From Telopea speciosissima (taxonomy: Eukaryota > Streptophyta > Magnoliopsida > Proteales > Proteaceae), in NCBI RefSeq assembly GCF_018873765.1, contig NC_057918.1:9370862-9434861 (forward strand): 64,000 bases of DNA, in the 5' to 3' direction. The notes under the pieces were generated by a model. The model was not told the origin of the DNA. It made no database searches and worked only from the letters and a program-made list of their open reading frames with translations. The translations under genes were made by a program, and so were the position numbers. Shown in pieces: positions 44,832 through 56,400 of the stretch (position 1 is its first letter; each line of letters starts with the position of its first letter).

Positions 44832-47800
44832 TTAGGGGAGCACTGCTCTCATTTCTTTGGGGTCAGGTCCAAATGCCTGCAATAACCAATCCATGTCAAT
44901 CGTCAGAAATGATGAGGCCTAGGATGTTTTTTGAGGAATCCATTATTATGTGAAGTTGCAACCAGTGTTAATTGGTCTGTACAAGTTTGTGGGTTGCTCC
45001 CTTCAGTGAGGATTGTGTTTCTATCACTTGTATCATTAAGTCCCTCTATGTACTTTTCAGATCTATCATCAATAAATTTGTTATTTATTTTATTTTATTT
45101 ATTTTTAAGTCTTTTTCCATGTCTTCCATAAAAAAATCTAACATACAATGGTTCCTAAAATCAAGATCATGAACATTAAATGTAACATGTAACCTACCCC
45201 ACCCAAAAAAAAGCCATATCAAGTGCACAAGGCTCCTGCCACTGCAGGCTCTGGGGAGGGTCATAATGTACACAGCCTTCCCCCGCTTTGCAAACAGGCT
45301 CTTTCCCGACTCGAAACCACGACCACTAGGTCGACATGGAGCAACCTTTACCGTTGCGCCAAGGCCCGCCCTTGATGTAACCAACCCAAAGTGGCCTCTA
45401 TATCTAGTTGATGGTCTGTCAGCTTGGCCACGCCATTCTGCCACATATAGCTCATATCAAGCCACCAAGGAGTGCTACTCCTGTAAGAAAGGTAAGTAGC
45501 TAATCTCTAAAACCTTGTTATGTGTAGAACTGCCAAGCCCTCCAGCAAGGCAGTTGGTGTATATATGAAAATGACCAGTCCCTAGGCTCCTTTTCCAATT
45601 CCAATTTCCCAACTGATAGGATACACCCATGAGATGATTGGTGTCTTAAATACTTAACAAACCATCAAATTAATGATGTCAGATCAGAATTTCTACCAGA
45701 ATTCAGAGCACATTCAATCCTGTGTGTAGTCCAAACTCTAATTTATCAATTTCCAAAGAATTCAAAAGGTGGTTTTAGGCAGGGGCCTATGCCTTAGGCC
45801 ATGACTGGGTCATCTCCATCATGACCTAATAAATCTGACTCATACTGGTTTTCATATTAGCATTCCCCTCTCATGTGGGGTTTGAGCACAGATAAGCTTG
45901 TGTCAATCGACTCAATCCCAAGCACTATCATGACCTGTTAAACCCTCAACAAAAACTTTATTATATGGCTCAACACAGTTGGAAGGATTAAGGATATCTG
46001 TGGGGCAAAAATGTCAAACTTGAACCATAGGCCAAGTTAATGGACTATCATATGTTGGTTAAAGACAATTAAATAGTCAACAGACCACCAAATTCTGACA
46101 ATTGATACCATGTAACACCACCAATCAACTAAAACAGTTCCCGGTTTAAAACAAGCCTTGATAAAAGGGGGAAGAATGAATGGTTTAAAAGCATGTCAAG
46201 TTCTTTAAATAAGAGATATACCAAGCAACATGCCTTCCTGGTACATGCAATCACATTTAGTAGCACTTGTCTATTTTTTTTTCCCTTCATGACTGTAATT
46301 TCCAGAAAGTTTAAACTAGATGGTCATACCATCAGACCAGTGACCCACAATTCCAGTGCAGTCCAATTTCCAGTATGTTTTAAGAACAACGTAGTCAAGT
46401 TTACGAAAACCTTTAAAGAAGACCTCCATTTAAAGTGAAATGAGCACAAGAAGGTATGCCTAAAGGATCAGAAATAAGTACATTTCTAGAGAACAAAAAA
46501 GATGGACAAAGCAATGAAAGCATAAATTAGAGGAAACTAAAATTACCTCGACTCCAAAACCTTTAACATAGACATTAGTGAACAATTCAGAAGCATCAGG
46601 CATTGGACTTTCCTGGTAACACAAAGATTAGAGTAAGGAACAGTGAGGACTCAAAGTTCAGCCACTAAGAAATGGCATCCAACATTTAGTGTTTCTCACC
46701 TTGGCTTTTGCAATAGTGTCATCTACCTCTTTTCTGACGTTCTTTTCAATATCCTGCAGAACAATTCATTGCACATTTCATCAACTCGGAGCACAATATA
46801 ATTTTAAGGATTCTTTTTTTTTTTTTTTTTTGGGTGGGGGGGGGGGGATATATATGACAGGATGGCAGCTGCAACCTAGATGCAGAAAACAACGAAGTGA
46901 GCCCTCAATAGGCAATTGAGAGAATAGGAGAGGAGCAGGGGGAGTCATGAAACTTCCTTCAATCACATAAATTCAGTTTTGAAAACCTTCAGTGAGATAA
47001 ATACCTTTAACTCTTTCTCTGTGGCAATCTCATGGGATAAAATCAACTTTCTTACTCTTTCAATAGGATCACGCTCCTGGAAATCACAACCACCAAGAAA
47101 GGTATAAACCTGAATCTATAAAACAAAGGACTGGCCAAATTCTCAAATTGAAAACTGAAGTATCAATAGATTACCAACCTGCCTGACACCACTAATCTCA
47201 TCACGTGTCCTGTAGGTGCTCCCCGGATCTGACATGGAGTGTCCATGGTACCTGTAAGTATCCATTTCAAGTATCTGAACACCAACATAAAAGGCAATAG
47301 TGTCAGGCCAATTTGTTCATATAACATCCCAAAACAAACCATTAACTGCAAATAATGACTACGGGTAGGAACTCTTGGTGATTCTTAAAGATCACATAAA
47401 GTATTAACAAATCAAATATTCACAATTTCTTAAATAAAAAAGCACAAGAAACAAGGTGAATTTTAGTATGTAAGTAACACGTGTTATTCTAGACAAATAT
47501 GAAAGCTCAGAAGATGCAAATGTGGGAACATGGATGATACCTAGTTGATCCAGCCCTCCTGGTAGCAAGTTCGAGTATTCCCCACAACCCCACCATCACC
47601 AAATCACATACCTATGCTTATCAGGAACTTTCACCTCTTCAACAGTGCAATCAATACGGCTAGATGATTTCAAGGCATTTTGGCCTCCGTAAGGGACTAA
47701 AATATTAGGGGCTAATCAAGCATTTCTGAGGAAACTAAAAAGTCTAGATAATACTGTCTAAAAATTTTTTGGATAGAATACTCTCAAATTTTATTTTATT

Positions 47801-49412
47801 TTTAAATCCTAAAAGGAAAAAAAGGTGGCAGAAACGGGTGTTGTGCTAGGCCTGACACAACAGCCCACTCAATTTGTGCCACATCACACATGATTCAGAA
47901 AGTTCCTGCCATATGGATGGGTAAGGTCCACCATGGATTAGCCATGTACCAAATTTGATGGTATAACTCCTTCGTATGGCCCACTTGTATTGGTTATTCA
48001 TTGCGTATTGTGAAAGCCTAAACTATTTTTTTGTAATCTTTTATTTTTATCTAAATTTTGACCCTTGACTTCTCCACATGTAAAACTAGGATTGGGCTGA
48101 AATTTTATAGATAGACAAAGAAGTGTGGGACCTACTGTGTGCCAAATTTGAGTTTCAGGAAACCACATGGCAGATAAGTGGGCCGTTGTGCTACTTCTCA
48201 CTCTTTATAATATTTCAATATATCTATATCAGGATGCTAATACAATTTTACACGTATGTGAGGGATTAGTTGCTAGAAAAAAATAAACCAAACCGCCCTC
48301 CCCAATCAAAGGGAGACCAATCAAGTTGTTCTAAAATGCAATTTAAAAGAATCAAAGTTTCAGATAAGGTTACTAGCAAACTAAGAACAAAAGAATTACT
48401 CTACTTTCAAGCAATAGGAGATGCTGAATCAAATCGAAGATTTCTTAAATCTGAATTATATTGAAGGATTATAATCCAGTCAAACCTCATTTGGTTTGCG
48501 TGAATGCGGTTAAAATCAACTCTAAATGAAAAAATATTTTTAGAAATCAAAACAAATGATTATTTTGCCACTTTTTGGTTTTTAGTGATGTTCTATCATG
48601 ACAAAAATTATGGGATTTTTAGATTTGGGAAAAACTCTAGTATTTGAAAGTTAAATTTCACCTACCGCTGAAAATCCAGTTTTTATTCTTGAACTGGGGG
48701 GTTGACTTTTTATCCTTTTGGAATTTGGTTTTCTAACTATTTTTATTGGATTCAAATGGGGGTATTTGCTTATTTATGAATAGTATCTTATGTAAATGAA
48801 AAACATTTACTTAAATGATATTTGGCATAAATAAGGGATTATTCTGGTTCAATACCGATTCCAAAAACAATATACATTATCAAACTTGGGTCAAAACCAC
48901 AATTATCATTTTGAGTGTTCTTTATGCGAAACTAATACATTTGGGTTCAAAATGTCAAAAATAGGCAGCACAACAAAAATCAGGGCAAAATTTAACTTCT
49001 GGGCCTCAAAACCAAGGTTTTGAATTGACCTGGAGAAAGAACCAGGTTTTGACCGAGATATGAGCGAAACCTGGCATATCTCGGTTTCAGGGCTGGCCGA
49101 AACTGGCCTCAAAACCGAGAGTTAGACCCTTGATTCAAACTACGGCAAGCAAGAATGACTGACATAGTGACAAAAACCAACAGGCCCTTGTGAACATTAG
49201 ATTTACCTTAATATAAGTATAATTAGAAATATACTATGGGGAAAGGTTTTGTACACGGTCGTGTAAACTATGTACGAAACTTCCCCCCCCCCCTTATTTT
49301 TTTTTTATGAAAACCCCCCCTTCTCTTTCCTCTCCGTTTCCTTCTACCATTCTTCTCCGTCACCGGCTCCCATCCCCCTCCTCCTCCTCCGGCTCCAACT
49401 CCCTCTTCCCTT

Positions 49413-49444
<32 letters not shown>

Positions 49445-50395
49445 TCCACATATGGCTCCTACCCTCCCGCCCCCTCATCTTCCACAACCCTCCATGCCAG
49501 CATCCCCCATCACCTCCTGCCCTCCTGCTCCCTCTTTTCCCCTGCAACTTACAGTTTTGAAATTTTAAAGCTTCTTCTCCTCCTCCTTGTCAATCGTCCT
49601 ACCCTCCCAAATGTCAAAACTCAAAATTACTCGAGAGAGAGAGAGGGTTTTCTTTTTCTCTTTAGACGAAAGGCGAACCTCAAAAACCAGAAATCAAAGA
49701 TGATGCTTGGCCGTGAGGAATGAACGAAGGAGGATCGAAGCCAAAATTTTCTCTTCTCTGGTTTTCTCGTCCTCCGTTCTCTCAATCCCCAACCCTAACC
49801 CTAACATCAATCTATCGCCGATTGCTGCTGCCAATGCCATGGAATTGATCCGCAGTCTCTCGGTAGGTAGATTTCGATCTACGGTCGCGTTTCCGGTTGG
49901 ATTTGGGTGTCATGGTTTTTCTGATCGATTTGCATTGCAGATCATGAGGGGAAAGAAAGGATGCCATCGCACGCGGATCTTGACTGGCAGATCAAGCATT
50001 TGATGGAATGTAAGCCTTTGCCCGAGGCCGAGGTGAAGTTTCTGCGAGCAGGCTCGAGTGATTCTCGTCGAGGAATGGAACGTACAACCAATGAAGTGGC
50101 CCGTTGCCTCTTCATGGGCGACTACGTAGGTTAGTCAGTTAAATTATCATTCTCCCATCTCTTAGCTTTCATCTTTATTCTTATCATCTCTTTTAGTTGT
50201 CGTATTGTAATTGAAGAGGTTTTGGGTCTGTTTGCTGTATGGATGACTGAATTTATGTGTTTTGTGTAATTCTTATGTTAAATTTTCAAAACTCAAATTG
50301 CAGGGGAAAAGAGGGAGCAGGAGGGCAGGAGGTGATGGGGGATGCTGGCATGGAGGGGTGTGGAAGATGAGGGGCGGGAGGGTAGGAGCCGTATG

Positions 50396-50441
<46 letters not shown>

Positions 50442-53400
50442 AGGGAAGGGAGGAAGGGAAGAGGGAGCTGGAGCCGGAGGAGGAGGAGGGGGATGGGAGC
50501 CGTGTGACGGAGAAGAATGGTAGAAGGAAACGGAGAGGAAAGAGGAGGGGGTTTTCATAAAAAAAAGTAAAGGGGGGGGGGGAGTTTCGTACAATTAGAA
50601 TTTTATGCAGATACTTATAGATAAAATTTTACTCACAGTTGTCATGGCGCCAAAGTGAGCCCACGCAGATGCAGGGGCCTTGACACTTTGGCACCTAGGT
50701 GATCAACAACAACATAATCTTATCCCAACTAAATGGTGTCAGCCACATGGATCCTTGCTCTCCAATCACCTCTACTCGAAGTCATACATGATACAAGGCC
50801 TAAGCTAAGCATGTATTTCCTCACCACTTCTATGGTTATTTTAGGTCTGCCCCTCGCTCTTTTTGTCCCGTCAATCTAAATCAAATCACTCCTCCGTAGT
50901 GGGGCATCCCAAGGCCTCCATTGAACATGGCCATTCCACCTCAAACGACTCTCTCTAAGCTTATCATGAATCGAAGCTACTCCCAACCCAGCTCTAATAT
51001 GGTCATTCCTTACTTTATCCTTCCTAGTTTTCCCTCACATCCATCTCAACATCCTCATCTCCACTACACAGTTTATTTATATGACAATTCTTAACTGTCC
51101 AACATCCCTTTTGTATATGTACAATTTGATAACCTAGTGACAGTCCTAGGTGATCAAAGCGTACATATAAAAAGAGAGGGGTTTAGATGTATATTATAGA
51201 ACTTTGATCTTTTAAGATAGTAAATTTTTTTGGGAGGGGGATTACATGTAAAATTGAAATCCCACTTCTTTTATTTATGAATAGAAGGGGAGTAATGTAT
51301 AAAATCAAAAACCCATTTTGATTACTGTGCTCTTCTTCCTCTTCAGAAGACAGATAAGCAGTAGTCAGTCATCACAGCGATGTTTGCAGTGGGACAGGTT
51401 GTAGCAGTGGCAGCTTCTACTGCTGCTTCTCCTCTTTTTTCCATTTTCCCCCCAATTTTCTCTTTTTCTCCCCATTTTTCTGATGGATTTTGGGACACAC
51501 CTAGGCGGCCGGTCACCTAGGTCCTCGAGCACCGCTATAGCGCTGCCTTGACAACTATGCTTTTACTTACCAGAAATTTCACCAAACCTTTTGAAATATA
51601 GAAACTTCATTTTTGGAGAGAGCTGAAAGATGATCATTTAAAATGAAATTTAACATTTTGGAATAGGGTAGGCACCATAGATGTCACAGCATGTAGGCAA
51701 CCCAAGGCGTTGGAGAGAGGGTCCAAAATCAAACCGACACCAACTAGGCGACCAAGGCATCCAAGGCGCCGGGACGCCTTGACAACTATGGACTAGGCAC
51801 ACAATTGGCTCCAAACCAGTGCATATGTGTACGACACGATTAAAATAAACCCTTTCCATCTCAAACATCACAGGAATGCTAGAAAATAGTTTCAACTACA
51901 TCCACTTCTGCAGTAGGCACAGTACAAAATGTCAAAAATTTTGTGCACCACATCCCATCCCAGTGCAACCTTCTTTTTTTAATTCAAATAAATAACAAAT
52001 ATATTAGCTAATCAAGAGTGCAGTAGTGGAATGCTCATAAGACAGAGATGGCCCATTGCTCTCTCCACCCCCCACCCCTCCCCAACCAAAAAAAAAAAGA
52101 CATCATCCAAATATTAAAGAAGAAAGAAAAGTAAACAACAATTTCATCATAGGGGCAGACTGCCCCAAAACAGATTCAATGAACACCCACTGTTTTGCTA
52201 GATTATCCACTCTCATTGGCATTTCTCAGCTTCCAATAGAATGAGCAGTTCAATCAGGAAGCAAGATAAGACAAACAGACTAATAAAATGTGCAGATCAA
52301 CCTATTCTTCATCTGCAAAATAATATTAGCTGCATCTCCTTCCATAACAACCTGATGTATCATCAACAAGAATAAACCCCAGTTCCACCTTCAAGGCTAA
52401 CAGTCCGCTCAATTAAACATCTTTACCAACTGGTCCTCAATACACACCATCCAATCCTATCGAACAACCAAATTATTCCTCTGATTCCAGATGGCCCTGA
52501 GTTTCCAAGGAAAATCCAGGAGCCCCTTTAACAACGGAGAGAAACCATACAGACAGATTAGTGACGTTAAACTGTGTGTGTGTTTGTGTGGTGGAAGAAA
52601 TGTAACTTAAGGTAAATTAGACTTATCAAAGGGACTCAGAGTGAAGACTACTTTTTCTTTGATACAGATTGTTACAACCGCTTATCCCAAACGCTCGAGC
52701 TTTTAAATAAGGGCCACAACAATATATATCAACACACAACACCCCCCCCCCCACACACACACACATGCAAGCACACACACGCACACGTGGGGCTCTGCAC
52801 GTGACACCATCAAGTGGCATGAAGGAGGCACAATGCATAGGGGCACAACAATGTATATCAACACAATAACACGGATAACTTCTTCCCAAATTTTACCGCC
52901 AGTCACAAATTTCATCTACCTAGAGTTTCCTCCAGAAGGAAACCCAGAGTGTCAAAAGTCACCTCTCAACTCTGGAATTCTATCCCAAGATGCTAACGGA
53001 GAAGCCCATGGTTCAAGAGAAATCTAATTTCACCCTACCAGGCTTCCATAGAAATAACTATGGACCTCTCAGAATAAACATTCCATCATGAATCTGTATG
53101 GTGGGAGCAATATAGCTGCAAAAACAAGAATGAAAAACAAGTACAATATCCCACATTCACTAGAACATCCAACCTTGGATTCCTAGCATGACTTAAATAA
53201 CTGAGATTACAGTCTATTAGAAGGTATGACCTCACCAACCTATCAAATCGACTGACGTACACTCATAACAGCCAACTCTAAACTGATTATGATACCAGCA
53301 CTACAATGCAGCAGCTTTTTTTTATATATACAAACAAAATCCTTCAACACACTAAACCAAGATCAATCTCCCTCAGCTCCACTCTCTATGTTAAAATACA

Positions 53401-56400
53401 TAATGACTCCCAAAATAAAATTAACAGAAAAATAAGACTGTCGTAGTAGCCTCCAAACCTGATCAACCTATTCTTCCAGGTAAGCCAGCCTCTATTACTA
53501 AAACATTTCAGTTTTCACCCTTACTTGTGTTATAGCCCCATTCACCAAGCCTGCTGCCATGATTGTACAACCACAATACCAGGACATCACCCAGTATGAT
53601 AGCATGCCTTTTTATTGGGTTCCACAATCACTATACCTCCTCCCCTATTCACACAACCAAAAACCAGCATGAGCTGCATCCTAAGCAAGTATAATACATG
53701 AGCAACACAATCTTTGCCTGTTCTTACATCATGCACTTGACCAAATACTTGTGATCACTCCCTAATGATGGTCCCGACTGATGTGAATATGGACCCTTTC
53801 CTCAGCCCAAGAAGTAAACAAAGAAGCACGGGGAACCCAAAATTAGAAGGAATATGCTTGACATATATATTATTATAGCCCATTGTTGACGGCACCACCA
53901 ACCACCATGCAGGAACATGTGAAACCACATGTCTTTTATTAATCATGTTTCACCTTTTCCTTTTTTCACTTTATAAAAGTATCACGATTCAAGAGTATCC
54001 TAGGTAATGTTTGCTCATTAACCTAAAATGCAAAAATCGCCAAATTTACTTGATCATAAATGTAAATTTAGCATGATCTACCAATTGCAAAGAGCAACTA
54101 GCATGAATAAGAGAAAAAGTAGCATACTGTGAGAATCCCATCTGACTTTATAACATGGTAAACCATAACCAAGGTCTCTTAGAACAGCCTTATAAGGATT
54201 AATATCTTTGACCAGTAACAGCCAACTGTGTTGCATTTCAGTTCCACAACATGAACAATCATTCCTCCAAGTGCAATACTTTCATAGTTTCAATGATTAG
54301 TAAAATGTCTATCAATGATTTCAACTAGGACAGATTCAAGGTATGCCTTTTGCACTCTGTTAGTCTCTACGTAAAACAATTAAAAATCTTCTGTTAAATC
54401 ACCAATAAATAACACTTGGATAAATTCAATCAACTTAATAAAATACATTAAATACTATATTGGATCCTATTTAAACAACTAATTTCAAAGTTTCCAGGAA
54501 GATAATAATAATAAAATGCATCTAGCTGTTACTACAAACTAATTTCATGAAAAATATTTCCAATATCTTACATGAACCAAATGGATCGTTAGTTTGAATA
54601 CTTCTTAGCAGTATAGATTTGGCCCACCACATTTTAAATGTAACTGGACAAAATATCAATGAGAAAGTAAATAAGAAAAAAATATACACTAACACCTTCC
54701 TCTGACTAAACTATCTCTGGGCAATATCATGTTCAAATAACTGAAGAAAAAATAACACTCAAATGAATATTCAATATTGAGGTAACCAGATGGAGGGTTT
54801 CCACAAAGCAATTTTAAGGAATAAAATCATTTCAGCACAAGATCCTAAAAAATGTACTCACAAGAGGCCCATTTTTAAGAGCATACTCCTTAGCAAATTT
54901 GCAAGCCTGCTTGACAGCAAGAACATCCATACCATCAACCTGTTAAGTGATATAAAATGCTTGAGAAGTTATGGCAAACAAGAAATAACATAAAAATAAT
55001 AACTGATAAATTTAGGAATTCTTAATCATGGATGACTACATCATTTCAAAGCAACCAACCATAACCAAAAGACTATAAAATCATAAAATCTAAAAATATA
55101 CAATGCTACGATCAAATGGCTACCAAGAATGTTAAGAAGATGATTTCTAAGAAAGAGCCAACAAACGTATAGACGATTGATCCACCTGCATACAAAAAGA
55201 TAAGAACTGTAGTTCACATATATGCAGGTCATCGATGCGTACATTCATTTGCTTTGCACTATTCATTTTTTTTATAGATACAGAAATCCCTTTCCAACAT
55301 ATATTAAATACAAAGACCAGAGTTCCACTCTTAGTTCTGATCAGTGAAGGGCCTCTACCCTAGGCCAGCATTCACTTCTTTTTTCCCAAAGAGCATGCAT
55401 AAAAATGTTTTTAGTAACTGTTAACATAGGCCACCTATCCCTTTCATATCTGCTAAACTTTTTTCCTCATTGCCACTATTCTATCTCCACCACCCCCTTA
55501 CTTCACTTTAACCACACATATATGTACGCTACCCATTAGCGCAATCAGCTAACATTAACCACTGAGCAACTGTCAGTACAGGTTCACATTCATTGGCAAT
55601 GACAAATATAAAACGCTAGGAAGGTAAGGGAAGTAGTAGTAGATAGAGTCAGTAAGTTGATTGGTTCTGGATACCAGGCAACTTACGAATGTAGCAATCT
55701 CTGATTCACAGTATACATAAGGACATACATGAGAAAACCAGGGGTCTTTTACTCTAATATTAGAAACCCTAAGAATCATATGACTGCAACCTGATGGAAA
55801 CCTAGATACCCACTAAACCCAAAAATAACTAGGGAATGATGTAGAACAAACACAAGAAATAAAACACTGATGAAGAAGCATATTTGTGGCTAAATCGTCA
55901 AAATATAAATACATCCAGGAAGGAAATCAAATATAAACATTATACTACATTTTGACCAAAAGATACCTTAACCAGCTTCTCATGGTAATATTTCATTACT
56001 GATCACGAAATAGAAAAAGGAATGATTTTAGAAAGAAAAGTATAACAAACAAATTAGACAACCTACAGCAATTAAACATAAAAAATCTTTAAGTTGGCAA
56101 CTAGAACCAGTAACAATATTGTTAAGCCAAACTTTGAACAATGCATAGCAGTAAATTACAGCGACATTCTACCCCACCCCCTTCACAAACTGGGGGAAAA
56201 AAAAAAAGGGGGAACTTAAACAGATTCAATTCCAAAAATGATATCCATGTGAGAGCCAGAAAATTAAAAAGGGGACAGTCATGAGAACATAAAAATAAAT
56301 AAATAGAGCAATTCAATCGACTGCTCAAGAAAAGGGGGAGTCAAATTTACCTTTAAACCAGGAACATAATCCCCACGCTTGAAATAAGCAGGACTTTTGG

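Follow-up and report, generated by a model that had tools for sequence, protein, structure and literature searches.

The window, a 64,000-nucleotide stretch of Telopea speciosissima DNA, contains at 49238..50593 what we interpret, with a probability of roughly 0.93, as a Pack-MULE that captured the 5' end of a gene for the catalytic subunit of protein phosphatase 2A (PP2A-C), spread in the genome and landed in an intron of the PDH E1-alpha gene. A Pack-MULE-like identity had been proposed in a preliminary description of this DNA. It is supported by a family of elements with the same terminal inverted repeats (TIRs), by the target-site duplications (TSDs) found in that family, by the varied interiors of its members and by the existence of a separate parental gene.

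Limits and structure of the element

The preliminary description had placed the element at 49221..50602. An element is indeed present there, but its ends had to be corrected. Comparison with other genomic copies (20 loci) set the left end at 49238 and revealed that the right TIR, which ends at 50593, is short by about 33 terminal bases, so that 49221-49237 and 50594-50602 belong to the host flank. The left TIR (49238..49572, plus strand), which starts with the terminus GGGGAAAGGTTTTGTACACGG, is common to elements with different interiors up to about position 49572. The right TIR (50280..50593, minus strand), whose outermost bases are gone, was delimited by arm comparison and by the other copies. 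The inverted arms of approximately 300 bp noticed previously were borne out by five ungapped complementary blocks of 95 nt (92%), 79 nt (85%), 62 nt (92%), 51 nt (82%) and 29 nt (97%), covering 49271-49565 against 50280-50593. At the right edge of the window copy, no repeat of the left flank, ATATACTAT, is seen. Because the right TIR has lost its terminus and stops at 50593, this copy displays no TSD, and the duplication may have been lost together with the terminus.

Between the arms lies the fragment taken from a PP2A catalytic-subunit gene (49604..50282, plus strand). It is separated from the family-shared left TIR by a 31-base stretch (49573..49603, plus strand) that falls outside the donor alignment, which begins at 49604, and that occurs in all three PP2A-bearing elements in our alignment. 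By this accounting, there is no transposase gene inside the element: 49604-50282 is PP2A, and the rest, except for the 31 bases, is TIR. The element itself, to which no strand is assigned, is non-autonomous. A search of 49000-51000 against Rfam yielded no match at gathering thresholds.

The PP2A passenger and its donor

A PP2A-C protein, used as query, matched 49961-50044 and 50037-50105 in two frames. A genome search with the passenger, in which all five candidates were scored, retrieved the passenger itself, two copies on contig C1 (95 and 91%), the donor on C8 and a paralogue on C3 (81%). The donor aligns in two blocks (92 and 91% identity to L035 2890-3405 and 3483-3657), and the alignment is collinear over the whole of 49604-50282. 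The captured piece consists of an upstream/5'UTR part (49604..49862, as given by the donor alignment), a leader intron of 78 bases with GT...AG borders whose position corresponds to that of the donor intron (49863..49940), the first coding exon with its ATG at 49961 (49941..50129), and the opening part of the donor's next intron (50130..50282), all on the plus strand. The exon has suffered a 2-base and an 82-base deletion relative to the donor. The latter, which is bounded in the donor by TTACC repeats, takes out the GDIHG motif, which has a metal-binding role.

These results agree with the earlier view of the interior. The leader, the leader intron, the N-terminal PP2A exon and the partial next intron that had been recognized there are present and collinear with the parental gene, and the reported loss of catalytic-core codons is supported. 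The proposed capture at the DNA level is likewise supported: alignment of parent and passenger across both introns found them retained, contrary to what a retroposed copy would show. All coding parts of the donor are present on C8, from 9251255 to 9265034; those missing from the passenger lie beyond a long intron, and the matches to the PP2A query protein extend to its final residue, at C8 9265034. Stop codons were counted near the donor exons, and this count was checked for the last exon only; there, the stop sits at the edge of the intron, ahead of the match. These alignments show that the passenger was copied at the DNA level, in collinear order, from the 5' end of a PP2A-C gene that is complete and lies on another chromosome.

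Single capture and spread

The 2-base and 82-base deletions are identical in all three PP2A passengers, namely those of the window copy and of the two C1 copies, L009 and L010. Since three elements share both the passenger and the two deletions, the fragment was captured once and then spread. Jukes-Cantor distances are 0.040-0.055 between copy and donor and 0.037-0.053 between copies, which places capture first, with the spread following not long after on this distance scale. The three copies form one clade with 80% bootstrap support (200 replicates), and their branching order received 44%. It is the shared deletions, rather than the clade support, that carry the argument for a single capture.

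The TIR family and its target-site duplications

The possibility, raised in the preliminary description, that the arms have no second copy was dismissed by a genome search with 49271-49569, which found at least 42 matches with 40 of the 50 candidates scored, many of them in opposite orientation 1-2 kb apart. A 43-base terminus pattern, allowing up to three mismatches, gave 91 genomic matches (44 forward and 47 reverse), and the reversed control gave none. These termini form 32 convergent pairs: 30 of 844-1704 bp, accounting for 60 of the 91 termini, one of 262 bp, located on C8, and one of 13,160 bp. The 27 termini that are unpaired at this stringency include the left end of the window copy, and the partner of one of them, on C9, was later located by similarity. 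The 13.2-kb pair (L025/L026, C4 16.48-16.49 Mb) has the appearance of a single element interrupted by an insertion whose ends are repeats.

The 9-bp flanks agree at 8 or 9 positions in 28 of the 33 elements tested (12 of the first 13 and 16 of the 20 later ones). Left and right flanks taken from different elements among the first 13 reached such agreement 10 times out of 156 (mean 4.6 positions); the 20 later elements have no mismatched-pair control of their own. The right offset was free by one base, set by whether a C came next in the first 13 elements and by the better of two in the later 20, which slightly favours the match. The elements falling short are L009 (5), L045 (4), L049 (7), L051 (7) and L053 (6). 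Of the PP2A sister copies, L010 is flanked by a perfect 9-bp repeat, and L009 by one matching at 5/9. The test did not include L011, L012, L014, L025-L028, the window copy, the 262-bp C8 pair, the 13.2-kb C4 pair and those unpaired ends, among the 27, that lie outside the tested elements. MULE TSDs are about 9 bp in length. Other TIR superfamilies were rejected, as the 9-bp TSDs of this family differ from those given for them in PMC8903248 (8 nt for hAT, 5 nt for CACTA, TA for Mariner and TTA/TAA for PIF).

Interiors of the other family members

Comparison of 35 elements, excluding L011, L012 and L025-L028, yielded 21 interior clusters. Seventeen interior ORFs, picked by eye from longer ORF lists, were searched against Pfam. 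Five passed a curated cut-off, matching a Kunitz inhibitor (L019), an inositol-phosphate synthase (L014), LEA_2 (L047) and P450 (L042 and L055), and the other 12 had no family over the cut-off, including L023, whose heavy-metal domain falls below it. Because L042 and L055 carry the same gene family in different clusters, the number of donors cannot be read from the figure of 21. For the inositol-phosphate-synthase passenger, there is a match on C1 with 93% identity over 714 query bases, and this locus is likely to be its donor. Relatives of the Kunitz passenger, with up to 88% identity, are clustered on C1. The elements L019 (C1 64.7 Mb) and L022 (C1 3.27 Mb), which belong to the same TIR family, have a common interior, and that of L019 holds a long Kunitz-inhibitor reading frame with Pfam matches over 189 residues. 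L055 (C11 3.45 Mb) seems to carry pieces of two genes: the start of a P450, recognized by Pfam, and a stretch without Pfam match that we take to be receptor-kinase-like. The interior of L018 recurs in six more copies with 94-96% identity and in one with 78%; its suggested identity as an EDR1-like kinase found no confirmation in Pfam or among PDB sequences.

A search for an autonomous MULE bearing these TIRs, in which 150 scored transposase matches (of 827 candidates) were crossed with the matched termini and a minority of the unpaired termini were inspected, found none. Only one of the 150 has a matched terminus closer than 40 kb, at a distance of 12.8 kb. This C9 terminus belongs to another element of about 0.9 kb and was discarded as a mark of the partner, and none of the left ends of the 35 elements has a match in the 4-kb stretch around the transposase match. 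The 13.2-kb C4 pair was also discarded, in view of its resemblance to a single element split by an insertion.

The host intron and the PDH E1-alpha paralogue

Using a plant PDH E1-alpha protein as query, we obtained minus-strand matches at 57192-56554, 56428-56345, 54942-54859, 47283-47005 and 46759-46547, the last two of which span short introns; one extra match, of 11 residues, is at chance level. The element sits between the third and fourth of these matches, which are 7.6 kb apart, that is, in an intron with approximate limits 47284..54858 (minus strand) taken from the matches at 54942-54859 and from 47283 downward. As PDH E1-alpha is encoded on the minus strand, the PP2A passenger is antisense to it, and the location in a PDH E1 alpha intron claimed at the outset holds.

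A PDH E1-alpha paralogue is located on C8 (L059, 87% identity). No match to the element was found in 6.5 kb taken from the start of this paralogue, a region that covers the matching intron in part; an insertion younger than the PDH duplication would lead one to expect this. Other parts of the intron (47284-54858) match the L059 region at 77-87% in three blocks, one of them in both orientations, which indicates further repeats in both PDH introns. PDH E1-alpha and PP2A-C are no more than about 0.35 Mb apart on C3 (the PDH gene of the window at 9.43 Mb and L036 at 9.77 Mb) as well as on C8 (L059 at 9.51 Mb and L035 at 9.25 Mb). It is probably a coincidence that PP2A was captured from one member of this apparent duplicated block and that one copy landed in the other.

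Decay of the passenger and alternative readings

Among the 18 unique changes of the window copy, 10 are C-to-T or G-to-A changes at CpG (85 CpG positions), compared with deamination-type changes at 2 of 224 other C/G positions (Fisher p = 6.5e-5, for a comparison chosen after the data had been seen). Deamination-type changes number five at CHG and two at CpG in L009, one at CpG, one at CHG and three at CHH in L010, and one, two and three, respectively, in the donor. Only the window copy shows a clear CpG decay signature, which is not distinct in L009 and L010 and which suggests that the window copy has been methylated. In the donor's frame, nonsynonymous changes account for 7 of the 8 changed codons in the window copy, 4 of 7 in L009 and 3 of 4 in L010, two of the nonsynonymous changes being common to all three copies.

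One alternative is that the element is a regulatory locus: the passenger would be read on both strands, or the PDH pre-mRNA would provide its antisense strand, and the resulting RNA, or small RNAs made from it, would lower PP2A-C expression. Exact matches between the element and the assumed mRNA part of the donor amount to 89 non-simple 21-mers and 66 non-simple 24-mers (12 non-simple 21-mers for the paralogous PP2A locus), transcription of PDH puts the antisense strand of PP2A in its intron, and the minus-strand RNA is predicted to fold into a long hairpin (-783 kcal/mol, computed without a shuffle control). However, the stem of this hairpin, which forms because the TIRs are complementary, is TIR rather than PP2A, and the passenger is in the loop. 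The 21-mers that the arms share with the donor locus (5 and 12) are simple-repeat sequences only, so that arm-derived small RNAs are not expected to target PP2A, which weakens one part of the small-RNA proposal that the preliminary description had offered as an inference; PP2A-directed small RNAs would need double-stranded RNA from the loop passenger itself, which is possible and of a kind reported from maize. The nonsynonymous changes show no evident coding constraint, and the window copy shows CpG decay. Furthermore, PP2A-C is probably essential, and strong silencing should therefore be selected against. Taken together, these points make a regulatory role unlikely. Even less likely is the more specific idea that the PDH intron RNA, antisense to the leader and first exon of PP2A-C, might couple PDH expression to lower PP2A-C expression. 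If true, each round of PDH transcription would deliver several hundred antisense bases in the loop of a hairpin of approximately 300 bp, acting as a trans-antisense RNA or via small RNAs derived from it.

That the element yields a small PP2A-like peptide is very improbable. The deleted bases add up to 84 (2 + 82), which restores the reading frame at the exon end, and in both the window copy and L010 an open frame of 57 codons (window 49961-50134) persists. However, the start codon is lost in L009 (ATA), nonsynonymous codon changes outnumber synonymous ones in every copy, and the central part of the peptide does not follow the PP2A reading frame. A processed PP2A pseudogene in or beside an unrelated inverted repeat, which would also account for a broken gene fragment, can be rejected with near certainty, because the passenger keeps the leader intron and the beginning of the following one in collinear order and is flanked by TIRs at three places.

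We therefore return to the Pack-MULE reading, under which the history of the element may be outlined as follows. A non-autonomous Mutator-like element, presumably moved by a transposase from elsewhere, took up the 5' end of PP2A-C at the DNA level, as the kept introns and the donor on another chromosome show. Template switching during gap repair, the usual model of gene acquisition by Pack-MULEs, may have been the mechanism of uptake. The loaded element then reached at least three places, as the two deletions common to three copies show. One copy entered the intron of PDH E1-alpha, where its right end is now shorter by about 33 bases and its decay has fallen mainly on CpG sites, a pattern to be expected if the DNA is methylated. 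Most likely it has no present host function, presumably being removed with the intron and kept silent.

Comparison with known elements

Pack-MULEs were reportedly described in rice by Jiang et al. in 2004. In the literature searched on Pack-MULEs and protein phosphatase 2A, and on Mutator-like gene fragments in Proteaceae, we found no report of the present element. The hallmarks of Pack-MULEs, as listed in PMC8903248 and PMC8277862, are MULE TIRs, TSDs and captured gene fragments, and about a third of rice Pack-MULEs are multicopy according to the latter. The Telopea element resembles the rice elements outlined in these sources in being non-autonomous and in its long TIRs, family TSDs and a gene fragment from an unlinked donor, as is often the case in rice; it differs in its TIR sequence, in its host plant and in that an autonomous partner has not been identified. 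Sacred lotus is reported in PMC4053705 to have 1,447 Pack-Mutator-like elements with genes or gene fragments, and the likeness concerns this carriage of gene fragments. The long exact matches to the donor recall the captured-gene siRNA reservoirs of maize, for which siRNA effects have been reported (cited in PMC13317346); those effects are maize's. The location of a transposon inside a long gene intron is similar to that in the heterochromatic introns of rice treated in PMC7145194, whereas methylation in the present case is suggested by CpG decay alone.

The element is a new member of the Pack-MULEs, a kind already well known in plants, and, taken by itself, it is ordinary. As a case it is unusually complete: the donor is known, three sister copies share their deletions, the introns are collinear and the landing site is an intron in which the passenger runs antisense to a housekeeping gene. 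Its TIR family, with 21 kinds of interior in 35 elements, would provide a good set for studying gene acquisition by Mutator-like elements.
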